Source of the DNA: a virus
Strand: one strand, 5' to 3'
Length of the DNA stretch: 51,506 bases
IMG/VR virus record: IMGVR_UViG_3300033984_000393
Coordinates: 1 to 51,506 of that record
In this document: piece after piece, positions 25,330 to 50,500 of the stretch
Layout: each line of letters starts with the position of its first letter
Position numbering within the stretch: the stretch's first letter is position 1
Notes under the pieces: generated by a model
Database searches by the model: none
Seen by the model: only the letters and a program-made list of their open reading frames with translations
Told to the model about the DNA's origin: nothing
Made by a program: the position numbers and the translations under genes

Positions 25330-26598
25330 TTATATTGTAAATACAAATTCTGATATTAATCCTTTATTTGCTTCATGTATATGTACAATTGCAGCACGTT
25401 GATTTCCTGTCCATTTGTTATGATAATGATAATAATCAGATGAAGTCAATGCAGGAATTATTCTTGTGATAAAACCTTGTTCTTCATTTTCAGTAATTAC
25501 TTCTTTTGTTTTTCTACCATGATAATGTCCTGTATATAAAAATCTATGTTTAGAATTTCCCCATTCTTTTGAAAACTCTGTAGCAAATACTAAAGGGTTG
25601 TTTTTAGAAGATACATCCCCATGTTCTAATGCAATCATGTTAGTGTGATACATTATTACTTTTCTTTCTCTATAAGAAGTATTAAAAACAATATCTCCTG
25701 ATAATTTAAAAACTTGAGATACTGCATGTATCAAATGAAATGAAGATAATCTGTCATGATTCCCAGGAATAAATACTACTTCAAGTTTATCACAAAAATG
25801 TTTTATTTTTCCTATTGCCAAACACACTGCATCAAATGCTTTCATGTATGCTTTAGTTGCTGTTTCTGAATTTTCTACAAGTGTGCCTTTTGTTGTTGTA
25901 CCATCAAAGGTATCCATATTAAGAGTATCAGGTCCTATAACAAATATAACTTTTTCAAGATTATAATTTGCATATGCTTTTCCTATTAGATAACATATTG
26001 CTTTGTCTACTACAACACCCATGTTTTCATTACCTGGTTTACCAAAATGTAAGTCTTGTAAAGAAATAACCCCACATACTTTTTCTGAAGATGATTCATT
26101 TAAGTACACAGGGTTTATTTTATCGTAAACAGGAAGTTCATATTTTGATAACTCTTCAATAAAAGAATTTTGAACTATTTGTTCTTTTGGCAATCTAGTT
26201 ATTAATGCAGATACTAACCATTTATTATTTTGTTCTTTATTCCAAAACTGAGATAATTTCCATATTGTAGTATCAATTCCTAAAAGTTTAATTATCTCAT
26301 CAGGTGTCTTAGGTTCTGTAGTTGATATACCTGTTATCTTACTTGTACCTGTATCTAAGTTCTGATGTGTTTCAATTACTTTTGATTTTACATCATTTTG
26401 TTTAAGAAGGATGTTATCAATATTTGCAAAAAAAAGATCATCCATCATTTGATCTTCAGAAGTATTTTTAATAACCTCTAATGTTTTTTTCTTTATAAAC
26501 ATATAATCATTAAATGATAATCCTAATCGTTCTGCTTCTTTAGTGTTTGAATTTTTTCTTGTTAATCCTTGATAAACTAATTTACTAATAAGTCTCAT
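25330..26598 (-). CDS. calcineurin-like metallophosphoesterase
   Basis: I place the start at the ATG at 26598 (MRLISKLVYQGLT), giving 422 aa. The frame stays open to 26700, but that extension would run into the promoter and terminator. Metallophosphoesterase motifs appear in order: DLHFG near 181 (DxH), GPDTLN near 220 (a variant of GDxxN), GNHD near 277, EHGD near 323 and GHYH near 356. These are the metal-binding residues of the family, so the enzyme is probably active on a phosphodiester or phosphomonoester. The N-terminal 130 residues look helical and may bind DNA. Its own promoter and a preceding terminator separate it from the fibre gene, and the tail operon follows after 61 nt. Substrate unknown. 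Confidence 0.85.
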   Translation of the reverse strand: MRLISKLVYQGLTRKNSNTKEAERLGLSFNDYMFIKKKTLEVIKNTSEDQMMDDLFFANIDNILLKQNDVKSKVIETHQNLDTGTSKITGISTTEPKTPDEIIKLLGIDTTIWKLSQFWNKEQNNKWLVSALITRLPKEQIVQNSFIEELSKYELPVYDKINPVYLNESSSEKVCGVISLQDLHFGKPGNENMGVVVDKAICYLIGKAYANYNLEKVIFVIGPDTLNMDTFDGTTTKGTLVENSETATKAYMKAFDAVCLAIGKIKHFCDKLEVVFIPGNHDRLSSFHLIHAVSQVFKLSGDIVFNTSYRERKVIMYHTNMIALEHGDVSSKNNPLVFATEFSKEWGNSKHRFLYTGHYHGRKTKEVITENEEQGFITRIIPALTSSDYYHYHNKWTGNQRAAIVHIHEANKGLISEFVFTI

Positions 26599-26619
26599 AA
26601 TTAAATGGTTAAAGTTATA

Positions 26620-26650
26620 CAAATATACTAAAAGTTTTATAAAAAAAACA
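26620..26650 (-). promoter_or_regulatory. Bacteroidota-type promoter for the metallophosphoesterase
   Basis: On the minus strand a TTG (plus positions 26648-26650) is followed after 21 nt by TATATTTG (26620-26627), a full TAnnTTTG -7 box, 21 nt before the ATG at 26598. The -33-like TTG lies in the U-tract side of the preceding terminator, so terminator and promoter are nested. Confidence 0.6.
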
Positions 26651-26670
26651 ACCCTTGCATAACAGCAAGG
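26639..26670 (-). terminator. Rho-independent terminator after the 949-aa fibre gene
   Basis: Minus-strand stem CCCTTGC, loop TGTTAT, stem GCAAGGG (plus 26651-26670), a perfect 7-bp hairpin, is followed by TTGTTTTTTT. It lies about 47 nt past the stop at 26717. A second, weaker inverted repeat (CAGAAAATGG with CCATTTCTG) sits between the stop and this hairpin. Confidence 0.85.
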
Positions 26671-26716
26671 GAAGTTCCTCAGAAAATGGAAAACCAACAA
26701 ACCATTTCTGATAATA

Positions 26717-29566
26717 TTACATAAAATAATCAGCTATTGTTTTAACCATTATTGGATCAGTATTAATACCAATTGTTGTTGATCCTATATTAACTGTACC
26801 ATTTACATTAAGAACATAATAAGAATTTGTACCTGTTGAAAGATAATTATTTAAAACTCCTCCAAACAATACTCTATTATCATTTAATACTTTGATGTCC
26901 ATACCACTTCTGTAAAAAGTGTCATTAAGAGATTTAACCCATATGCTTGAAATATCTACAGTAAATGATGTATCAACTGTACCATTTGTATTAATTTTTA
27001 CAAGTGCATTTACACGTGAAGTATTATACATTCCAAAGTTTCCAGTAATTAATAATCCATTAATATGTGGTACAATTTTTTCAATACTAACAGCAAAATC
27101 ACCTTCTGAATATTGTGAAGCTTCTGTTGAAAATATTACTTTTTTCCAACCTGAATTGATACCATCTAATAAAAATCCACTACCAGAATTAAATTCTAAT
27201 GTTGGTGCTATGCTACCATTGTTTTTAATTTTTACTATATGATTTGCTGTTATTCCTTTATATGTATAAAAAGCACCTCCAGCATATATATCATTATTTG
27301 AATCAATGTGTACAGTTTTTACAAGTGAGTATCTATTACTACTATTAGCTCTTGTAGTTTGTAATGCAGAAAAACTTGTTCCTGATACAACAAATGTAGG
27401 ATCAAGAGTACCATCAGTTTTTAATCTTAATATATTATGTGCAGGTGTAGCAACATTTAAAATACTAGAAATTGAATTAAACAAACCACCAACTACAATT
27501 TTACCATTTCCATCAATTTGTATATCATAAACACCTTGGTGAAAATTTGAACTTCCAGGAAGACCACCTACTCCTATTTTAAAAGTTGAACTAGATATAA
27601 TAGCACCTGTTGTTGCATCTAAACAAACTAAATTTTTTGAACAATTTGCACCTTTATACATATCAAATCTTCCACCTACATAAAGTCTATTAGATGCACT
27701 ATCATATTTTATACTTCTTATAACAGGTACTACTCCAACTGCTAGATTAGCACTATTTACTGCAAACCCAACACCACCTAATGTGCTAGTAAGAAATGTT
27801 CTATTTATTGTTGTATAAGCTGTGCCTGTTCGTGATGAACAATTTAATTTAACAATACCACCACTTATAAAAAACCCAGCTTCATCAGCTAAACTTACAG
27901 GAGTTTTACCTGCAAGAAATAAACCATCATTGCATAATTCAGATGTCCAAAAGGTTGGAAAGTTATAATTACCACTACCAGGTGTAGAGTTAATAACAGG
28001 AAATGCTGATTCTATTGCACCAGTAGAAATATTAATTTTTAACAATGTTTCTTGTGGTGATTCAAAAGTTCCTGCTATTAAGTTTGTTATTTCTCCATTA
28101 CATGCTTCTGGTTGAGGGCAGTCTGGTATTTGAATAGTAAATGGTGTTGGTTCACTATCTAAAAGTGCACAAGTTGTAACAACAGTACCAGTATAAATTA
28201 CACCACACACCCATGGAAAACTAAATGAAGGTGATGAACTTACAAGAGATGTAGCTGTTCCTCCTGGATAATTATAAGTTAAAGTATAATTTGTTGCTCC
28301 AGATATAGCAGTAAATGTTATTTGAACATTTGCTCCAACTACAACTGCAATAGGACTAATTGGTTGACCACAACTTGGATCACAACATGATTGTTGTGTA
28401 GAAGGTGATGGATCACATGTTCCATTACCTGATGCAGGTGTAGTTATAGTACACACACGTGTTTGCATACATGATGCATTACAATCACCCCATTCTTCAC
28501 AAGTCCAAACACAATCAACATCAGCTGGTTGTGTACATGTTCCACCAAGTGCAGATGATATCATAAATGAACCAGGGTTTAAAGAACCAGCAACCCCTGT
28601 ACCAACAGGATAAATACTTGTTGCATTTAATAAACCTATATTACCTAATACATTGCTTGTAACTGTATAACTAGTATTGTTATATAAAAGTGTAATTGTA
28701 TGTAATGTTCCTAAAACATCAACCACATAAGAATACTTAGGATGACGATAAGTATCATATGGAGTATTAAACGCTGCAATACTATTAAAAAATTCATAAA
28801 CTCTTCCTCCAACAGTAAGTTGTAAATGAAAACAAATTAAATATGTAGGACAGGTAGTAAGAGTAGATTGTATAAGATCTAAATAATTTGTATCATCTTG
28901 TGGGTTATTCCACAACTGAGTAGTTGTGTTAGATACAGGATAATAATTATCATTATTGTCTAATGTAAAATCAGGAAAATCAGCAACACCCAGTGAAGGT
29001 GAAATACGCCATTTATCATCTACATTACTCCACCAAACTGATTGAGGATTTGTACATATAGTAAATGAGTAATAAGGTTTACCATCATGCATGCCTGAAG
29101 GAGCAACAGTAATTTGTGTTCCAAGAGGTTCTGTCCCACATATATCACTTCCAAAAGTAAAACATACACTGTTAACAGTACAGTCTTCATATTCTATTAA
29201 AGGTCCACAAGCAACACCACCATTTGAAGCAGGAGTAATAACAGTTTTTGTACGTGTTCTTCTACCACAAGTTAAAGTTTCACCTACATAGTAGCATTCA
29301 CATTCACTCCATGCACTCCAATTACTTAGTACACAATCTACAGGTGCACAACAACCACAATCAGGTAATGTATTATCAAATATATCTAGTATATCTAAAA
29401 AAGTCATTCCTGCTCTTATACCTAAACAAGTGATGTCTTCACCAGTATATATTACACAAGCAGCATTATATTCATCACCACACAATCCTGTTAAATCAGG
29501 AAGTGGTAAAGGTGTTACAGTACCAGGACAAGGTGAGCAATTATCGCAGTTATCATTTGGATACAT
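26717..29566 (-). CDS. adhesin/tail-fibre-like protein with TSP1-like, Fn3-like and beta-propeller-like parts (949 aa)
   Basis: Residues 30-67 hold the shared module (AACVIYTGEDITCLGIRAG) also present in the next two genes upstream. Residues 80-130 look like a thrombospondin type-1 repeat: SNWSAWSECEC, then CGRRTRT and spaced cysteines. A second, looser TSP1-like unit lies at about 350-394 (CEEWGDCNASCMQTRVC). A fibronectin-III-like stretch follows at 400-480. From about 490 to 940 there are repeated blades of the type DGTLDPTFVVSG...DIYAGGAFYTYKG, resembling short delta-60/DUF5122-style beta-propeller repeats. No signal peptide. The gene ends at a strong terminator. Receptor binding is inferred from domain type and position among structural genes; no protein partner is shown. 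Confidence 0.75.
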   Translation of the reverse strand: MYPNDNCDNCSPCPGTVTPLPLPDLTGLCGDEYNAACVIYTGEDITCLGIRAGMTFLDILDIFDNTLPDCGCCAPVDCVLSNWSAWSECECYYVGETLTCGRRTRTKTVITPASNGGVACGPLIEYEDCTVNSVCFTFGSDICGTEPLGTQITVAPSGMHDGKPYYSFTICTNPQSVWWSNVDDKWRISPSLGVADFPDFTLDNNDNYYPVSNTTTQLWNNPQDDTNYLDLIQSTLTTCPTYLICFHLQLTVGGRVYEFFNSIAAFNTPYDTYRHPKYSYVVDVLGTLHTITLLYNNTSYTVTSNVLGNIGLLNATSIYPVGTGVAGSLNPGSFMISSALGGTCTQPADVDCVWTCEEWGDCNASCMQTRVCTITTPASGNGTCDPSPSTQQSCCDPSCGQPISPIAVVVGANVQITFTAISGATNYTLTYNYPGGTATSLVSSSPSFSFPWVCGVIYTGTVVTTCALLDSEPTPFTIQIPDCPQPEACNGEITNLIAGTFESPQETLLKINISTGAIESAFPVINSTPGSGNYNFPTFWTSELCNDGLFLAGKTPVSLADEAGFFISGGIVKLNCSSRTGTAYTTINRTFLTSTLGGVGFAVNSANLAVGVVPVIRSIKYDSASNRLYVGGRFDMYKGANCSKNLVCLDATTGAIISSSTFKIGVGGLPGSSNFHQGVYDIQIDGNGKIVVGGLFNSISSILNVATPAHNILRLKTDGTLDPTFVVSGTSFSALQTTRANSSNRYSLVKTVHIDSNNDIYAGGAFYTYKGITANHIVKIKNNGSIAPTLEFNSGSGFLLDGINSGWKKVIFSTEASQYSEGDFAVSIEKIVPHINGLLITGNFGMYNTSRVNALVKINTNGTVDTSFTVDISSIWVKSLNDTFYRSGMDIKVLNDNRVLFGGVLNNYLSTGTNSYYVLNVNGTVNIGSTTIGINTDPIMVKTIADYFM

Positions 29567-32550: not shown

Positions 32551-34173
32551 TTATGGTTGTAATTTAAGAGTTACATCATAGTTATTTGCAGAAGTTAACA
32601 AGTTTGTAAAGATGCCTTCAAATGTAGCATTACGTGCAGAACAAACTACTCTAACTAAGTATTGATCACTATCCATCATACCACTTGGATTGCTCTTACG
32701 AGGAACACTGTGTAAAATGTTGTAAACAACATATTTATTACCACGTGTAATTTCAGTAAAAGGATTATAATCAAGAACCTCTCTTAAACGTGGATCTTGG
32801 ATCCATGGTTCTTGTTGATATCTTTTAGCTAAAATCAACTCTCTAACAAGAGTTTCACCAAATCCTCTACCTTGAACTGCTTGTTGTAATTCAGCAGGAA
32901 CAAAACATGCAGCTAAACATTGGTTTCCTAATGGATCCAATGCTGTAATAGAAGCATAGATTTCAATTGGTTGCAATTCTACGTGATCTCTTGGAGCAAA
33001 AGAACAGTCACCAAATACAGTATCTACATATGCACCTACAATTTCTAAGAAAGAGTTTACAGTATCAGGAGCAGTAGCACCTGTTAAAGGAACATAAGTT
33101 GCAGAAGTAATAACACCAAAAAATTTAGGAGTGATACTTGTAGTTGTAAAAGCTGTAACAGCAGTTGTTAAACTTGATGTTTGAATAGTATTTGCAGCAA
33201 CTAAAGCAACAGCACCTGAACCTGTAGCAGCAACATAAGTTGAAGCAACATAAGCAATTACAGGAGTAACAGAACTAATTGTAGCAGAAGCAACAGTTTG
33301 AGAAATGTTAACTAAGAAAGTTGAACCTGTACCACCACCACCAGAAACTCTAGATACAATAGTTGTACCAACAGCAACACCTGTTCCAGTAAGAACTTGT
33401 CCTACAGAGAAAAGAGTAGTTGTAGCAGTACCTACTGTAAATAAATTACCAGCAATACTTGAAGTAGTTGCAGATGTAGCACTTGTAGGTGTAAACACAA
33501 CTCTTTGATTAGCAGCAATACCATCTCTTGTCATAGTAAATGCAGTTGCAGCTGTAGCAGCAGCCGTTGGAGCTGTTCCAGAAACAAGAACTTGGTTCCA
33601 TACAGTTCCTTGTACAAAATCTTTAACAGTTGGGTACAAAGCCAATCTGTCTGCCCATCCTAACAATACAATGTTTGGATCTACATTATTTGGTGCTGTA
33701 GCTGAATCACAACATCCAGTATCAGCATCTAATGTAAAGTAAGCATTGTGAGTTAAGAAACGTAATGCAGGAGAACCTTTAAGATCAAGTCTTAATCTGT
33801 AAGTAGTATTACAAGTAACAGAACATCCAGCAGTAGCAGATATTTGTTGAATATCTTGTACAGGGTTAGATGGTTCAGTTACATAGTATGCACTAATGTA
33901 CTTAGGGTTGATCCCTTTTGATTTTACTGATTCTTTGTAACCTCCATGAAAAGGTCCCAATTTATCAACAGTGTGATAACTTCCTTGTGCAAGATACACT
34001 AAAGGATTTACTTGATAAGCAGTTGTAGTTAATGTAGCGTCAACAGTTAAGTTGGTAGCAGCACTAAGTACACCTACTTGTCCAGCAGTTAAAGCAGAGC
34101 TTGCAATACCAGTAGTGGTTTGAAAACTTCCTGCAACGAGCATTTTCTGAAATGCATGTGGAAAATAAGCCAT
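32551..34173 (-). CDS. virion structural protein with low-complexity Thr/Ala/Val beta insertion (540 aa)
   Basis: A 540-codon frame starting MAYFPHAFQKMLVAGSFQTT. Residues 60-190 and 360-540 look like the protein's own fold (GPFHGGYKESVKSKGINPKY; RELILAKRYQQEPWIQDPRL). Residues about 200-340 are a Thr/Ala/Val/Gly-rich beta segment containing GQVLTGTGVAVGTTIVSR...GGGGTGSTF...SQTVASATIS, a repeat type I know from various phage tail and decoration proteins. It has its own terminator, and a TAACTTTAA motif lies 12 nt before the start. A sheath-like or head-exposed role is possible; a strong terminator suggests high expression. Not assigned to a named family. Confidence 0.65.
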   Translation of the reverse strand: MAYFPHAFQKMLVAGSFQTTTGIASSALTAGQVGVLSAATNLTVDATLTTTAYQVNPLVYLAQGSYHTVDKLGPFHGGYKESVKSKGINPKYISAYYVTEPSNPVQDIQQISATAGCSVTCNTTYRLRLDLKGSPALRFLTHNAYFTLDADTGCCDSATAPNNVDPNIVLLGWADRLALYPTVKDFVQGTVWNQVLVSGTAPTAAATAATAFTMTRDGIAANQRVVFTPTSATSATTSSIAGNLFTVGTATTTLFSVGQVLTGTGVAVGTTIVSRVSGGGGTGSTFLVNISQTVASATISSVTPVIAYVASTYVAATGSGAVALVAANTIQTSSLTTAVTAFTTTSITPKFFGVITSATYVPLTGATAPDTVNSFLEIVGAYVDTVFGDCSFAPRDHVELQPIEIYASITALDPLGNQCLAACFVPAELQQAVQGRGFGETLVRELILAKRYQQEPWIQDPRLREVLDYNPFTEITRGNKYVVYNILHSVPRKSNPSGMMDSDQYLVRVVCSARNATFEGIFTNLLTSANNYDVTLKLQP

Positions 34174-34206: not shown

Positions 34207-34638
34207 TTATTTGAGGAATAGTAATTTATATTTAATACTATTCAGTGTACTTTTGATTGTATCTAGATCATTTACAATTTCACTATAAGGCATTGCTGTT
34301 TGTAATGTGTTAATCATCTGATATATATCTCTTATATAAGATAATGATTCTTCTACAGATTTCAAAACTATTGGAGAAAAATCTTCATATTCTAATAATT
34401 TTTCTACAGCACCTTGAAAACCTTCAGCTAAAGTATCAGCATGTCCAGGTAAAGCATCATATAATTCATTAAGTGCAATGTGTGCAGCATAAGATCCTTC
34501 TCCTGTAATTTTTAAATGCATTTTATGAAAACTTACTGCAGCATTTAATAATTCAGTAACACAAGCAGCAGTTTGTTTTTCTAATGAATTTATAGAAAAA
34601 AGTTCTTCTTTTTTTAATTTATATTTTTCTTCTTTCAT
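34207..34638 (-). CDS. Dps-like (ferritin-superfamily) protein
   Basis: A 143-codon frame whose ATG overlaps the ferritin stop (TAATG), so translation is coupled. Residues 22-80 match the first half of a Dps fold: LLNAAVSFHKMHLKITGEG, then HIALNELYDALPGHADTLAE. His41, His53, Asp68 and Glu72 reproduce the exact spacing of the inter-subunit ferroxidase site known from Listeria Dps (His31, His43, Asp58, Glu62; +12, +27, +31). The usual HW dipeptide is HL here. The C-terminal half is helical (SYIRDIYQMINTLQTA) and diverged, and the length is slightly short for Dps. Expected role: iron oxidation or peroxide detoxification, possibly with DNA. Identity rests on motif spacing. Confidence 0.75.
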   Translation of the reverse strand: MKEEKYKLKKEELFSINSLEKQTAACVTELLNAAVSFHKMHLKITGEGSYAAHIALNELYDALPGHADTLAEGFQGAVEKLLEYEDFSPIVLKSVEESLSYIRDIYQMINTLQTAMPYSEIVNDLDTIKSTLNSIKYKLLFLK

Positions 34639-35264
34639 TATCCTGCCATTTCAGTATCTAATAATCTTAATGCAATTTTATCAGTGCCAAAAGCTTCAAG
34701 CTTATCTACCCAAGTTTGCATTTTATCATGTTCTTCTACTTGTTCTTTTAAAAATCTAAGAGATAATTCATATAACATATGATCACCTTTTTTAAATGAT
34801 TCTGATGCCATTTGTTTACATTGTGTGCTAATTAATACTTCATGATCAAATGAATCTTGAATAATTTGAGGCAAACCAGTAAAGTTTTGCATTGGTTGAT
34901 CAAGACGTGGTGTTAAAGGTTGTAAACCAAAAGACAACAAATGTGTTCTTGACCATTCAGCATGTTTCAATTCTTCATCTGAATATGTTCTCCATAAACT
35001 AGCAGCACCACTATAACCTTTATTATTTAACCACATAGACATTGCTAAATATACTCTTGAAGAATATTCTTCTTGTTGTATTCTGTAATTTAAATAATCA
35101 ACACAATGCTCAGATATAAGAGGATTCATTGTTGTTTTAGAAGGTATTTGTGTACTTGCTCCTGCGCTAGGTTTTACTGTAGATACAGTATCTAATGGTG
35201 ATGTTTCTACACTTGCATCACTAGTTGTTCTTTTTAACATTCTTGTTACTGCACTATTGTCCAT
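34638..35264 (-). CDS. ferritin (non-heme, FtnA-like) with 45-residue N-terminal extension
   Basis: A 208-codon frame. From about residue 46 (MNPLISEHCVDYLNYRIQQE) it reads as a classical four-helix ferritin. The ferroxidase ligands of bacterial FtnA are in place: Glu65 (QQEEYSS), Glu98 and His101 (DEELKHAE), Glu142 (DHEVLIST), Gln175 and Glu178 (KEQVEEH). It should oxidise ferrous iron and store it in a 24-mer. The extra N-terminus (TSDASVETSPLDTVSTV...) is Ser/Thr/Val-rich and looks disordered; it could target the shell to another structure or be a start-site artefact, since Met46 is an alternative start. It lies 5 nt after the neck-like gene and overlaps the Dps-like gene by one base. Confidence 0.9.
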   Translation of the reverse strand: MDNSAVTRMLKRTTSDASVETSPLDTVSTVKPSAGASTQIPSKTTMNPLISEHCVDYLNYRIQQEEYSSRVYLAMSMWLNNKGYSGAASLWRTYSDEELKHAEWSRTHLLSFGLQPLTPRLDQPMQNFTGLPQIIQDSFDHEVLISTQCKQMASESFKKGDHMLYELSLRFLKEQVEEHDKMQTWVDKLEAFGTDKIALRLLDTEMAG

Positions 35265-35269
35265 AATGT

Positions 35270-35983
35270 TTAATTATTAGATGTTGAATTTTGTTTGTTT
35301 CTTTGATATTGATTCATTGATTCTATATCTCCTGCAAGAATAGAACATGTTTCATCTACCAGCATTTCTGTAATGTCATCTTTAAACTCACATGTAATAT
35401 CTGTAAATATTGTATTTCCTGTTGAAGGGTTTACACAATTTCTAAATTCTACTTCTCTAGGTTTTCTATAATAGTATAATACTGGACTTGCTAATTCAAA
35501 CTCATTATTAGTATATACTTTTATTTTATTACTTGAAAGTGTGCAAAAAGTTTCACCCCATTTAGCACTTGGTTGTTTAAAATTATCTATTAAAAGATTA
35601 TCAACATCTGCAACTTGTGCAAGATATACAATCATTATTCTTGGTTCTGTGCAACATTCTGAAATAGAGTTTACAGAAAATCTTTTAAAATATAAATAAT
35701 CTGCAGGTAAACTATTAGTTTCATAGTAAATGTTATTTTTTGTCATTACTACTGGAGTACTTAAAGTATCAGTAAGTAATAATTGAATATCATCAATGTT
35801 CATCTTAGAAGATTCATCACCTTCTTTGAATTGATTTGCACCATGTACTTGTCTACGCACCCATTCCAATTGCGCTTTATTAAATGCTTCACTAACTTGC
35901 CAGCATTCTATGTTATCATAGTCTAAGCTAGCAAGTTTGTTTAAGCGTTCTTTTATCTTTATTTGTAATAAAGCATTTGTCAT
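35270..35983 (-). CDS. crAss-like neck/ring-type structural protein (237 aa)
   Basis: A 237-codon frame starting MTNALLQIKIKERLNKLASLDYDN. The segments FNKAQLEWVRRQVHGANQFKEG and DDIQLLLTD recall a conserved structural protein of crAss-like phages near the capsid genes, which I take to be a head-tail connector or ring protein. Later parts are beta-rich (NSLPADYLYFKRFSV, LASPVLYYYRKPREVEF) and the C-terminal helix ends in a polar Gln/Asn tail. It is 2 nt from the 48-aa gene and 5 nt from the ferritin gene. No catalytic motif. The specific ring assignment is inference. Confidence 0.7.
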   Translation of the reverse strand: MTNALLQIKIKERLNKLASLDYDNIECWQVSEAFNKAQLEWVRRQVHGANQFKEGDESSKMNIDDIQLLLTDTLSTPVVMTKNNIYYETNSLPADYLYFKRFSVNSISECCTEPRIMIVYLAQVADVDNLLIDNFKQPSAKWGETFCTLSSNKIKVYTNNEFELASPVLYYYRKPREVEFRNCVNPSTGNTIFTDITCEFKDDITEMLVDETCSILAGDIESMNQYQRNKQNSTSNN

Positions 35984-36318: not shown

Positions 36319-37335
36319 TTATGAGTTCCAATATTTTTCTGTATTTGTGATTACATCTAAAAGAATTTCTTCATTCAAAGGGTTCTTTAAATATAATAAT
36401 ATATCAGAAGGATTTTTACCTAACATAGAACCTGATTTCATATGATAGATATTACCATCACCTCTTGTTGCAATTAATTTATAAAAATTAGCATCTTTAA
36501 TTACAGCTCTTAATTTTAAAGTTTCCATATCTAATAAAGATATATCTAAAAACTTTTGTGCAGTTTGACGCTTATTTGTTTCAACTGTTTCTCCACTAAT
36601 ATATTTATCCATATTATCATATAATATATCTAATGGCGTAGATTTTTTATATTGTGTTGAATTTGGATCAACTACTTTACATACATAAAATAATTTATTA
36701 GCATTTTTGTCAAACATTTTTTGCAATTCAGCAAATGCTTTATTTTTAATTTTTTTAAGTTCTGTTTTAATAGATGCAGTTTCTTCAAACTTGTCTAAGT
36801 AAAATTTAAACTTAGGTGCTTCAGTTCTAGCATGTTGTAATGATTTTGCAACTATACTAAATCCACCATGCTCAATAGCTCTTAATTTAATAAGATCATA
36901 AGGATCATTTGAAGGATCTAAATACACAGGTTCATTACTAAATCTCATTGAGATCTTTCCCCAAAAATCATCATTATCTGGTCTAAGTAATTTTACTTTG
37001 TTCCAAAAGTCTACATCATTAACATCAATAACATTTGCAATTAATTCTTTTTCTAATTGAGCAATTGTACTTCTAATGTCTTTTACCATTGCTTCTCTTT
37101 CTTCTTGTGGAAGATTCTTTACTTCTGGTGCAAACTCATTTAATCCAGTTACGTATCTTTTAATACCATTATTCTCAAGACATATAATTTGTTCTTCATG
37201 AAAAATACCTTCAAATAAAACCATTTGATATTTTTCTAAACCCATGTTAGCTGTAGAGTTATCTACAAAAGGTCTGATTGTTAAACTACTGTTTCTTTTT
37301 AATGATTGATGTTTGTCAATAATTGAAATACTCAT
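36319..37335 (-). CDS. conserved structural-module protein of unknown role (338 aa)
   Basis: A 338-codon frame starting MSISIIDKHQSLKRNSSLTIRPF. It is mostly helical with charged segments (LPQEEREAMVKDIRSTIAQLEKEL; SIKTELKKIKNKAFAELQKMF). The position two genes after the major capsid gene and its size resemble a conserved capsid-region protein in crAss-like phages whose function I do not know. No metal, nucleotide or protease motif is visible. It is preceded by an unusual 170-nt region full of inverted repeats and followed after 16 nt by the 51-aa gene. Confidence 0.7.
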   Translation of the reverse strand: MSISIIDKHQSLKRNSSLTIRPFVDNSTANMGLEKYQMVLFEGIFHEEQIICLENNGIKRYVTGLNEFAPEVKNLPQEEREAMVKDIRSTIAQLEKELIANVIDVNDVDFWNKVKLLRPDNDDFWGKISMRFSNEPVYLDPSNDPYDLIKLRAIEHGGFSIVAKSLQHARTEAPKFKFYLDKFEETASIKTELKKIKNKAFAELQKMFDKNANKLFYVCKVVDPNSTQYKKSTPLDILYDNMDKYISGETVETNKRQTAQKFLDISLLDMETLKLRAVIKDANFYKLIATRGDGNIYHMKSGSMLGKNPSDILLYLKNPLNEEILLDVITNTEKYWNS

Positions 37336-37775: not shown

Positions 37776-39425
37776 TTAGAATGAACCTCCTGTAACAGGA
37801 TTTCTCATTACAATTTTCAATACTTTAGTTGGATCTTTAACCCAGATACTTGGCATAGTTTGAGTCATAAATACTCTATAACCATTGAAGTTTCCAGAAG
37901 ATGCAAACCCTTGAGATCTACCCATATAGTCCATAGTACCATTTTGATAGAACCATTTCAATTGATTATCCCAAGATAATTTCAACAAGAAGATGTTGTC
38001 ATTTGTGTTATCAGTAATATCAAATACAATAAAGTTGTAAGAAGATAATGGATAACCATCTATAATAGGATTTTCAATATCATTTGTGTGAACATTGTCA
38101 AATGCAGGATTCAATACAAATTTAACATTTGCCAAGAAAGGAATGGTATAACTTGTAAAAGCAAAACCAAAATTCAAGTCCATTGCACTTTTTCCTGAAA
38201 TAGCACCAACACCAGAAGAATCCATGTTAGCAATTAATCCAGTAGAACCACCAATAGTTCCTGAGAAAGCTTCATTTTTAATAGCTTGATTCACCATTCT
38301 CATACCAGCCATACCAGTTTGAACAATAATTTGTCTATTAGGATCTGGTCCTTTGAATTCAACTTTACCATTGTAGAAGTTAAAAATCTCAGATCTAAAC
38401 AACTCTAAGTTGAAAGAACCTTTGTTGTAGATTCTCTTATAAGAGTTATCTAACTGAGACCAAAGACCTACAGACAATCTAATATCATCTGGACCATCTT
38501 GTTTAATTCTACCACCTTGTCCCCACATTAAGTAAGTCTCAATGTCATTAGCTACTTTAGATAAGTGAGCTGCTTCAAGATTAGTTACAAATGATCTGGT
38601 TAAATTACCATTATCATATGATTTTTTAATCCAATCTTTACCCATTGACTTAACCATGTCATCTATCTTAGTAATAGAAGGATCAAGATTTTTATCAAAT
38701 GATCTCCAGATTTCTGTTACAGGAACTGTACCATCTGCATTAAGACCACCTTTCATCATCATGTCAGCACGAGAAGAAATAGAATAGTGTACGTGAGCTT
38801 CAGCACCTCCAACAAAGTTGTAGTACTCTCTGAAACCATTTTGCAATTCTCCAATGTCAGAGAATTTTTCACCATACTCACCTCTTGCAGAACCTTTTCT
38901 GAAAAATTTAGTACCTGGTTTAAGATACTTTTTATCTAAAGTTGCAGTGTTGTTGTTATTTACAAGTTGTACTGTATAGATAAATCCATCTCCAGAAGGA
39001 AGAATGTCTTCACTAGGTACAATGTAAAGTTCAAGACCTTTATATTTGTCATAAGTGATGATATCACCTGATCCAAACATACGTCTGTTAATTTTGATTT
39101 TGAAGTTTGTACCATCAGCTCCTAAAGCTGTTTGTGTAGGTTCAACATCTTCTACAATGTATGGAAGATCTTGTACAATTGGCGTTTGCCATTTATACTC
39201 TCCACGTGCATTGTCTACCATTATGGTGTTTTTACCACCAAAAGATGCCATCTGATAAAGAGGCATTTCAACCTTTTGCGTCATAGCCCATAAATCAACA
39301 GGTCCTAAATCCATAGGTTCTGAAGTTTTAAGCATATTTTGCAAATGGTATGAATCTACATGCGAGCTTACTTTATAAGTAGTGTCACGCAAAAAGAGAC
39401 CATTGTTTAAAACTGGTGTGCTCAT
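37776..39425 (-). CDS. major capsid protein
   Basis: A 549-codon frame starting MSTPVLNNGLFLRDTTYKVS. It is the expected size for a crAss-like HK97-fold capsid protein and lies in the canonical order terminase, portal, scaffold-like, capsid. Internal features fit: SFGGKNTIMVDNARGEYKW early, RRMFGSGDIITYDKYKGLEL, a long helix-and-sheet middle (WGQGGRIKQDGPDDIRLSVG), and a C-terminal GYRVFMTQTMPSIWVKDPTKVL. A strong terminator directly follows. HK97 fold is from family knowledge, not shown here. No proteolytic site was identified. Confidence 0.85.
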   Translation of the reverse strand: MSTPVLNNGLFLRDTTYKVSSHVDSYHLQNMLKTSEPMDLGPVDLWAMTQKVEMPLYQMASFGGKNTIMVDNARGEYKWQTPIVQDLPYIVEDVEPTQTALGADGTNFKIKINRRMFGSGDIITYDKYKGLELYIVPSEDILPSGDGFIYTVQLVNNNNTATLDKKYLKPGTKFFRKGSARGEYGEKFSDIGELQNGFREYYNFVGGAEAHVHYSISSRADMMMKGGLNADGTVPVTEIWRSFDKNLDPSITKIDDMVKSMGKDWIKKSYDNGNLTRSFVTNLEAAHLSKVANDIETYLMWGQGGRIKQDGPDDIRLSVGLWSQLDNSYKRIYNKGSFNLELFRSEIFNFYNGKVEFKGPDPNRQIIVQTGMAGMRMVNQAIKNEAFSGTIGGSTGLIANMDSSGVGAISGKSAMDLNFGFAFTSYTIPFLANVKFVLNPAFDNVHTNDIENPIIDGYPLSSYNFIVFDITDNTNDNIFLLKLSWDNQLKWFYQNGTMDYMGRSQGFASSGNFNGYRVFMTQTMPSIWVKDPTKVLKIVMRNPVTGGSF

Positions 39426-39450: not shown

Positions 39451-40707
39451 TTATCGTTTAAATATATTTGTTTGTCTTGTAATTTTTCTTGATGCTGGTT
39501 TAATATCATCTTCATCTTCATCTCTTGTATAAGAAGAGATCTTACGCGATTCTTCTGTTTTAAGTTTTCTAACTGTTTCAGCTACAACTTCATTTTTTGC
39601 TTGTTTTCTAATGTTTTCTTTATAATCTTCTGGATCAGAAAGTAACCACAATGTTTCTGCAATCAAATCATATCTTGGTTGTTTACCAAACTGATAGTCT
39701 TCTAAAAGTTTACCTAACATATTTGTAGGTCTTCCTGAGATACTTTCATACTTAACAGTTGTAAGTTCATCCCATAACATTTTTTGTCTTTTAGAATCAA
39801 TCTTTACACCATTTAAATCACCAGGTTTTAAAGTTTCATATATGTTGTGCATATATGCTTCTTTTTTTTCTTGCTGTTGTTGTTTAAAATATTCTTGTTG
39901 TGCAAGTTTACCTTTTAACATTTCCTCTTGCAAGTCATCTAGTTTTGGTTTAAATTGATTTGCTTTCTTTTGCAAGTTACCACCATCAATCCATTCTTCA
40001 ATTTGATCTTCAATTAAAGCCTGATCATTGTTACCAAATCCTGTAGCTTGTAAATATTGTCTAACAATCATTTCTTGATGTTCTGGTTGTCTTACATCTA
40101 ACTCACGTACTTCTTCTACATGTGCTAATGCTCTAAACAATCCTTTTAAATCTTGTCCACCTTTAGCAACATACTCTGCAGCATATTGTAATTCTTCTGG
40201 TAGAGATTCAAAAAACTCTTTTGGAGTATTTGCTGCTACATCATTTTTAATACTATCAACATTTGCTGACCACAACTCTTCTACATCTTTTTCAGATAAG
40301 TTTCCTAGATAGTCATCTAATGATTGTTTCTTTTCATCATAATCATCAAAAGCAAACATCTCATTATTCTCAATTCTTTTCTTTAAGAATGATACTAATC
40401 CACTTTTATCTGTTTTACTTCTACCACCTTTTTTCTTAGGTTCATCATCTTCATCAAAATCATCTCCTACTTTAAGTGTTGTATCTAAATCATCTAATGC
40501 TTCATCAGCATCTTCTTTGTCACTCTTCTCATCATTTTTATCTAAAAAATCAAGATTGACTGGTTTGCTATTTGCAGTAAATAAGTTTGGTTTACTTTCT
40601 TCATCATCTGAAGTTACCACACTATCTGCTCCTGGCATAGGTAAAAAATCATCAATGTTATCAATAACAATGTCTTCTACTTGTGATCTGTTGTTTTCTG
40701 TACTCAT
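39451..40707 (-). CDS. scaffold-like acidic protein upstream of capsid gene (418 aa)
   Basis: A 418-codon frame starting MSTENNRSQVEDIVIDNIDD. The first 110 residues are highly acidic (DEEDADEALDDLD-like runs, DDFDEDDEPKKKGG). The rest is predicted helical with coiled-coil regions (LAQQEYFKQQQQEKKEAYM) and ends in a basic tail (ASRKITRQTNIFKR). Position between portal and capsid genes, acidity and helicity are typical of a phage scaffolding protein. The basic C-terminus would bind the capsid shell interior. The function is inferred from position and composition; no scaffold-specific motif exists to confirm it. Confidence 0.7.
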   Translation of the reverse strand: MSTENNRSQVEDIVIDNIDDFLPMPGADSVVTSDDEESKPNLFTANSKPVNLDFLDKNDEKSDKEDADEALDDLDTTLKVGDDFDEDDEPKKKGGRSKTDKSGLVSFLKKRIENNEMFAFDDYDEKKQSLDDYLGNLSEKDVEELWSANVDSIKNDVAANTPKEFFESLPEELQYAAEYVAKGGQDLKGLFRALAHVEEVRELDVRQPEHQEMIVRQYLQATGFGNNDQALIEDQIEEWIDGGNLQKKANQFKPKLDDLQEEMLKGKLAQQEYFKQQQQEKKEAYMHNIYETLKPGDLNGVKIDSKRQKMLWDELTTVKYESISGRPTNMLGKLLEDYQFGKQPRYDLIAETLWLLSDPEDYKENIRKQAKNEVVAETVRKLKTEESRKISSYTRDEDEDDIKPASRKITRQTNIFKR

Positions 40708-49847: not shown

Positions 49848-50099
49848 TTATTTATTAAAGGTTAATGCTTTTACTACTGCCATTTGTGCTTCTACAATTT
49901 TCATTATTGCATGATCAACAATCTTACCATGCATAGGAGCAATTTGTTGATTGTCAAAATTATTTGCTAATGCATCAATTAAGCTTGCACACATCATCTT
50001 AGTAGTATCTACTTCAGGCATAGATGATGGATTAAAATTTACACCAATGATCTGTTGACCAAATGTTAATTCTTGTTCTGTTTTTTCTTCTGTACTCAT
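49848..50099 (-). CDS. 83-aa protein upstream of GroES-like gene
   Basis: An 83-codon frame starting MSTEEKTEQELTFGQQIIGV. It is rich in Met, Asp, Ala and helical (MMCASLIDALANNFDN; AIMKIVEAQMAVVKALTFN). Similar small proteins occur in T4-like and crAss-like phages, often near chaperone genes, but function is unknown to me. It overlaps the upstream 133-aa gene by one nucleotide. Confidence 0.65.
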   Translation of the reverse strand: MSTEEKTEQELTFGQQIIGVNFNPSSMPEVDTTKMMCASLIDALANNFDNQQIAPMHGKIVDHAIMKIVEAQMAVVKALTFNK

Positions 50100-50500
50100 T
50101 ACTCTTTTTTTAATTTTCTTACTGGTGTTTCATCATCTTCCTTTGGCATAGCTACTTGATCTTCAGGTAGTGGTTTTTCAGTAATACCTACTATATCACC
50201 AACTTGAATACCTTGTTCAGCTAACTCAGGATTATTATCTAAATCTTCTTGTGTAACAGTATGTTGAATTACTCCTTCTGGGAATTCATCTGTTTTAGGT
50301 AACTGTTGACCGCCACCTTTTGGTCCAGCAAAATGCGCTTGTTTAGCAATTGCTTCTACTCTTCTTGCATCAAACTCTGCAGTTTGACATGCAAGTTCTG
50401 CTAACTGAGCTCTAAGTTTTGCAACTTCAATTTGATCAGTATAAAAATTAATTACTTCTTCCTTAGTAGGAACCTTTTTTTCTTTTGCTTCTGCACTCAT
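50099..50500 (-). CDS. 133-aa crAss-like small protein
   Basis: A 133-codon frame starting MSAEAKEKKVPTKEEVINFY. Residues 15-55 form a helical, Ala/Gln-rich segment (AKLRAQLAELACQTAEFDAR) and the C-terminus is acidic/basic mixed (EDDETPVRKLKKE). I recall similar proteins at this location of crAss-like phages. It is the first gene of the minus-strand operon after the divergent promoters. Function unknown. Confidence 0.65.
   Translation of the reverse strand: MSAEAKEKKVPTKEEVINFYTDQIEVAKLRAQLAELACQTAEFDARRVEAIAKQAHFAGPKGGGQQLPKTDEFPEGVIQHTVTQEDLDNNPELAEQGIQVGDIVGITEKPLPEDQVAMPKEDDETPVRKLKKE

Follow-up and report, generated by a model that had tools for sequence, protein, structure and literature searches.

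Ferritin-family genes, and only these, fill one fixed slot of the late virion-assembly operon in a group of crAss-like phages. The occupant has been swapped repeatedly between a Dps-like protein with a strictly conserved ferroxidase site and a ferritin, and both carry an N-terminal tag that is shared with the C-terminus of a probable scaffold protein. The reading that we favour, and to which we give somewhat better than even chances, is that catalytic ferritin-family cages are recruited to the procapsid via this scaffold-like peptide, as an in-virus parallel of the iron cargo of encapsulins.

A Dps-like protein and a ferritin in a crAss-like virion operon

The window, by which we mean the whole stretch of 51,506 nt that was analysed, is the virus record IMGVR_UViG_3300033984_000393 of a crAss-like phage. 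It carries genes for terminase (phrog_6681), portal (phrog_6547), the crAss-type major capsid protein (PF23898) and the ring proteins 1 (PF24228) and 2 (PF25702). On the minus strand, to which all coordinates of the operon refer, the gene order is terminase, portal, a 418-aa protein, the capsid protein (37776–39425; PF23898 E 6e-30, phrog_11589 E 6e-31), a gp33-like 338-aa protein, a ring-like 237-aa protein, ferritin, the Dps-like protein and a 540-aa protein.

Elsewhere in the window, a DNA repair exonuclease (phrog_704; 25330–26700) lies among the virion genes immediately before the ring genes; the TTG listed as its start probably lies upstream of the true one. The 949-aa product of 26717–29566 contains a DUF5122 beta-propeller, has a TSP1_spondin-like match below threshold and is possibly a receptor-binding protein. 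Among genome contigs, only one match to this phage module was confirmed, on a contig of 7.9 kb (L228) assigned to a MAG of the Sphingomonadaceae. By capsid protein, the nearest isolate is the Leptolyngbya phage Lbo-JY46 (PP438436; 28% identity over 99%), whose host is a cyanobacterium and not one of the Bacteroidetes that crAss-like phages usually infect.

The sequence-only reading had singled out the open reading frame at 34207–34638, and this frame (143 aa, ATG start) was confirmed, as was its one-base overlap with the ferritin gene, base 34638 being common to ATG and TAA ('TAATG'). The protein belongs to DUF5856 (PF19174; 52.1 bits against a cut-off of 34.6, E 1.4e-13) and to PHROG 858 (phrog_858, E 5.8e-20). 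Its match to PF00210 is weak (E 0.006) and covers aa 27–72, i.e. the first two helices; the match to the PDB Dps 1n1q is of similar size (E 0.007). Since its scores as a Dps proper fall below the cut-offs, both for PF00210 (17 bits, cut-off 24.5) and for PRK09448 (13 bits, cut-off 114), we filed the protein as Dps-like and not as Dps. In keeping with the proposed fold, AlphaFold2 run on 60 relatives gave a confident monomer model (pLDDT 86, pTM 0.82) in which four helices form a bundle and the BC helix is short. Dps proteins were the best structural matches in Foldseek (TM 0.66) and VIA-align (MsDps2, Z 15.5 over 128 residues). As helical bundles generally score high, the site is a stronger argument than the fold match.

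The proposed ferroxidase residues H41, H53, D68 and E72, encoded within 34423–34518, do have the +12/+27/+31 spacing that had been read from the letters. All four belong to a set of positions (H38, H41, H53, Y60, D68, E72, Q75, G76, N123, D126 and Y137) that do not vary among 119 distinct relatives, the most divergent of which are 26% identical. Moreover, H38, H41, H53, Y60, D68, E72 and D126 are also kept in five outside DUF5856 proteins, namely those of the unrelated phages RB49, P19250A, zth2-2, ctEw122 and cta1H496. In the model, helix placement fits such a site: H41 lies towards the end of helix A, while helix B has H53 close to its start and D68/E72 close to its end. In Listeria Dps, the counterparts of D68 and E72 are D58 and E62, and W32 stands where the 143-aa protein has L42. 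The numbering of the Listeria histidines, H31 and H43, appears in the PDB titles 2bk6 and 2bjy. On the basis of the model and the conserved site, the 143-aa protein is predicted to be a Dps-type mini-ferritin that would form cages, oxidise Fe(II) and store ferric oxide.

The adjoining gene (34638–35264) encodes a bona fide non-haem ferritin of 208 aa with a 48-aa N-terminal tail (PF00210 74 bits, E 1.5e-20; PDB 3qz3 E 8e-23) in which the FtnA-type site residues are present, so that the original observation of a Dps-like protein with a complete ferroxidase set next to a true ferritin in a phage holds. Nine FtnA-type catalytic and site-C positions are invariant in 48 ferritins, slot and non-slot. 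They were assigned by comparison with E. coli FtnA, in line with the finding that the PDB matches of the window ferritin are of FtnA type. Slot ferritins have N-terminal extensions of about 15–48 residues, whereas the non-slot ferritins (L130–L147) start with the ferritin domain and have no tail. These tail-less ferritins belong to a different set of viral contigs, in which they are flanked by two giant genes of about 1000–2000 aa each (e.g. 6001–6441 in L140).

Occupancy of the slot

Upstream, the slot is bordered by the 237-aa tail ring protein (35270–35983), which matches crAss001 gp34 (E 1.7e-4) and the phi17:2 'structural protein' gp064 (E 6e-22) in profile comparisons. In the solved crAss001 virion, gp34 forms the tail rings R4 and R5 (PMC10172136). 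The downstream border is the 540-aa protein (32551–34173), which is syntenic in the surveyed loci and corresponds in position to the phi17:2 structural protein gp063. Two ring-anchored surveys were pooled with the others and made non-redundant by ring protein, which left 190 distinct loci with the same flanks. A DUF5856 gene alone was present in 111 of these, a ferritin gene alone in 28, both in 2 and neither in 49, in a pool that is biased towards loci found with the ferritin and Dps-like proteins. Taken alone, the ring-anchored surveys showed a Dps-like gene in most slots near the window and an empty slot in most loci around L226. A set of 80 loci fetched with the ring protein mostly held a Dps-like gene and in few cases a ferritin or both. 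Where the arrangement is the usual one, a median of 5 bp separates the ring gene from the start of the Dps-like gene. Among the best 80 IMG/VR loci by the Dps-like protein, the ring-like and 540-aa neighbours were kept and a ferritin was found in 2, which are sister contigs. A search with the ferritin returned many loci with a ferritin gene at the same place and without a Dps-like gene.

The sequence-only reading had proposed a dedicated ferritin/Dps pair translated together, and this was not borne out: of the 113 DUF5856-bearing slots, 2 also hold a ferritin, those of the window phage and its sister, the only ones with both genes among the 190 loci. Cross-searches of contigs gave the same picture, as the Dps-like gene is absent from near-complete ferritin-only contigs of 100–119 kb, and no ferritin above the cut-off was found in 23 Dps-like contigs of 95–136 kb, where the weak matches are DUF5856-sized frames. 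On these two grounds we rejected a dedicated pair. The slot ferritin and the Dps-like protein are no pair but ALTERNATIVES; they look like substitutes that stand side by side here.

By parsimony on a tree of the ring proteins (FastTree), at least 14 switches between the Dps-like and ferritin states took place, 8 of which follow necessarily, for the ferritin label, from branches with good support, and the slot state changed at least 22 times overall. A general insertion hotspot was rejected, since no clean slot of more than 400 bp held an unrelated gene. That many relatives have an empty slot indicates that the function is optional or dispensable. Given the survey and the mutual exclusion of the two genes, the window phage appears to have gained a ferritin in a slot from which the Dps-like gene had not been lost. 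In the window, the tag of the Dps-like protein is eroded and that of the ferritin canonical, which would fit a replacement in progress.

Two extra open reading frames in L191 and L203 are alike at their start and similar to each other. In another crAss-like lineage (L116, L118, L119, L125 and L126), ferritin and/or Dps-like genes lie between the portal gene and the homologue of the 418-aa protein, in differing order; in L125 of this separate lineage, both the ferritin and the Dps-like protein beside the portal start with MALDINK.

A tag shared with the probable scaffold

The 418-aa protein (39451–40707), encoded between the portal and major capsid genes, is probably the scaffold, judging from its position before the capsid gene, its acidity and its helicity. 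A low-confidence AlphaFold2 model (pLDDT 64) has an acidic disordered N-terminus, long helices and a disordered basic C-terminal tail. In phi17:2, gp067 has the same position and no structural annotation, whereas its neighbours are annotated as structural. The 418-aa protein had no family match, a fold search with it returned nothing useful (E >3), and no profile link was found between its family and crAss001 gp31 or phi17:2 gp067. Its C-terminal peptide, RKITRQTNIFKR in the window (39454–39492), is conserved across relatives (example: RKIPRPANIFKR) and ends in [IFM]F..[RK] in 135 of the 136 relatives scored. The peptide is kept also where the slot is empty, which indicates that it has a role of its own and that the cage proteins share it. 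If the 418-aa protein is the scaffold, this basic peptide is probably its coat-binding element.

The slot ferritins and the Dps-like proteins have in common an N-terminal tag with the approximate consensus (R/K)(M/K)LKR(P/D), as exemplified by the ferritin start MEKNRMLKRPETK and the Dps-like start MEKPRMLKRDAMT. In the window, the ferritin tag is RMLKRT (35226–35243; motif score 17.1). The Dps-like tag is degraded to YKLKKE (34606–34623; motif score 10.8), where its sisters have YKLKRP, and the C-terminus of the 418-aa protein passes only a looser LxR..IF pattern. Swapped relatives retain the tag, for example as NNVLKRTLK in L070 and NANVLKRTLK in L122.

The likeness was assessed by using the termini of one protein to predict those of another against composition-preserving shuffles, with redundancy reduced by shared 3-mers and not by a tree, so that binomial values calculated for these matches are on the optimistic side. 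A motif derived from the Dps-like tails matched 55% of the slot-ferritin tails (n=29; shuffled 2.1%) and 75% of the 418-aa C-termini (n=24; shuffled 3.4%). It matched 0% of the ferritins elsewhere and at most 4% of the other sets. In the reverse direction, a profile of the 418-aa C-termini matched 49% of the non-redundant Dps-like tails, compared with 2.5% of shuffled ones. For the slot ferritins this reverse test was weaker (20% versus 4.7% shuffled); almost all other sets gave 0–4%, and a set of capsid N-termini (n=9) gave one match.

An N-terminal SLKR is also present in the gp33-like protein (36319–37335; profile match to crAss001 gp33 E 1e-6, motif score 12.8 at residue 10). About 4% of the gp33-like family reached the threshold, and this candidate was set aside. 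C-terminal lookalikes of the tag, VRKLKKE or VRTLKRK, occur in small proteins of the window (50099–50500) and of L063 (2897–3118), L079 (3244–3486) and L080 (3064–3285). In the unrelated podovirus ctEw122, a DUF5856 gene directly follows the portal gene (L323, 1154–1962 and 3679–4304); the DUF5856 tail contains TLLYG, the next protein ends in NALYGGG, and two small proteins end in TLIGS and TLLGA. At most, these termini hint at a possible tag system in that phage.

Proposed cages in the phage head and comparison with known systems

A Dps-like protein or a 24-mer-type ferritin fills the slot interchangeably, with a flexible N-terminal tail bearing a short basic-hydrophobic tag that resembles the C-terminal peptide of the probable scaffold. 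As we picture it, this tag would attach to the inside of the coat or to the partner of the scaffold, and cages displaying many tags on their outside would thereby be recruited into the procapsid. Inside the head, the cage would remove Fe(II) and, in the case of Dps, also peroxide near the packaged DNA, and iron may travel with the virion in such cages. A possible role in protecting DNA within the capsid, which had been put forward from the start, gains indirect support from the position in the morphogenesis module and from the scaffold-like tag. A bolder version holds that a crAss-like clade packs active cages into HK97-type capsids filled with DNA, having copied onto them the peptide by which its scaffold binds the coat, with Dps-like protein and ferritin as interchangeable cargo, and that its virions carry mineralised iron; we regard this as tentative, its chances being a little below even. 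Against capsid loading it can be said that a cage of 9–12 nm could not exit via the tail, which weakens a benefit after ejection, and against the scaffold-tag reading that the tag is short and that basic tails could bind DNA instead. As far as tested, neither gene is present in the isolates Lbo-JY46 and phi17:2, the sole counterpart in crAss001 is gp7, located elsewhere, and in the literature searched we found no report of a ferritin or DUF5856 protein in crAss-like virions.

Conceivably, the place of action is the infected cell and not the virion, with the cages forming a late-expressed stress module that buffers iron and peroxide and merely sits where a junction of virion genes tolerates insertions. 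Dps and Mn-catalase genes of gut phages have been read as aiding hosts against oxidative damage (PMC8008677). Slot presence and absence also varies between close relatives, and both crAss001 gp7 ('DpsA') and RB49 rI.-1 lie outside virion modules. However, a role in the cell leaves unexplained that the slot takes ferritin-family genes only, and that both proteins share with the 418-aa C-terminus a tag absent from ferritins elsewhere. We consider this explanation unlikely, but it is the one among the rivals that survives best.

E. coli Dps binds DNA via a lysine-containing N-terminal tail, and the tails described here are likewise basic and flexible. On this reading, the protein would coat the phage DNA, which the scaffold-like C-terminus would also touch. 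Yet charge-keeping shuffles lose the motif (2–3% versus 49–93%), which requires ordered L/I and R positions and is found also on ferritins, as a rule not DNA binders. This makes DNA-binding tails an improbable account of the motif. A co-translated pair, for instance with mixed cages or a two-step chain of iron handling, would agree with the one-base stop/start overlap and with the adjacency of both genes in L116, L118, L119 and L125, but with both in 2 of 190 slots and each elsewhere without the other, we give it very little credence. Least probable of all is that the shared 5′ coding stretch is a mere recombination foothold for allele swaps without targeting function. At the protein level, the first dozen codons are indeed largely common to swapped relatives, but neither the same motif at the distant 418-aa C-terminus nor the conservation of the tag within non-swapping lineages is explained by this reading.

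If recruitment of the cages to the procapsid is indeed what happens, ferritin-type enzymes would be a natural cargo of phage heads with a nameable recruiting peptide, and a large set of hypothetical late genes of crAss-like phages would gain a function. The 'Ferrojan horse' hypothesis of iron-bearing virions, which as cited in PMC11705849 concerns tail fibres, would gain a concrete iron store.

Among known systems, the Dps mini-ferritins of Listeria innocua and M. smegmatis (MsDps2) share with the 143-aa protein the four-helix fold, the short BC helix and the H-H-D-E spacing. Identity to them is only about 8–21% in structural alignments, and the 143-aa protein differs in sitting in a virion module and in having a scaffold-like tag in place of the known Dps tails. 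Phage proteins of DUF5856/PHROG 858, such as RB49 rI.-1, are of the same family and have identical site residues, but those inspected have no LKR tag; most of them lie outside virion genes, the ctEw122 protein being an exception. The crAss001 gp7 and the DPS of Gratiaviridae (PMC8008677) are also Dps-like proteins encoded by phages of Bacteroidetes, in the case of gp7 by a crAss phage; gp7, however, lies among tRNA genes and is weakly related to the 143-aa protein (E 0.0013).

Encapsulins take in ferritin-like cargo such as EncFtn and IMEF via terminal targeting peptides (PMC6668986), and here, too, a ferritin family, an HK97-type shell and a short terminal recruiting peptide would come together, linking phage capsids to iron stores of the same shell fold. 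The tag common to both slot proteins would be a targeting peptide in this sense if the shell binds it. Encapsulins, however, are cellular compartments with a C-terminal cargo peptide, whereas in the present case the shell would be a phage head filled with DNA, and the tag is N-terminal and resembles the C-terminus of a probable scaffold. As the operon contains no encapsulin shell gene, its shell gene encoding a crAss-type phage capsid protein, the slot proteins would work like encapsulin cargo without being such cargo. Finally, cargo is loaded into P22 capsids by fusion to truncated scaffold, residues 141–303 (PMC9962691), so that a scaffold-derived segment brings cargo into a phage capsid there as well. 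The P22 system is engineered, whereas the crAss-like cages would be a natural case and, as such, a natural model for scaffold-fusion loading.
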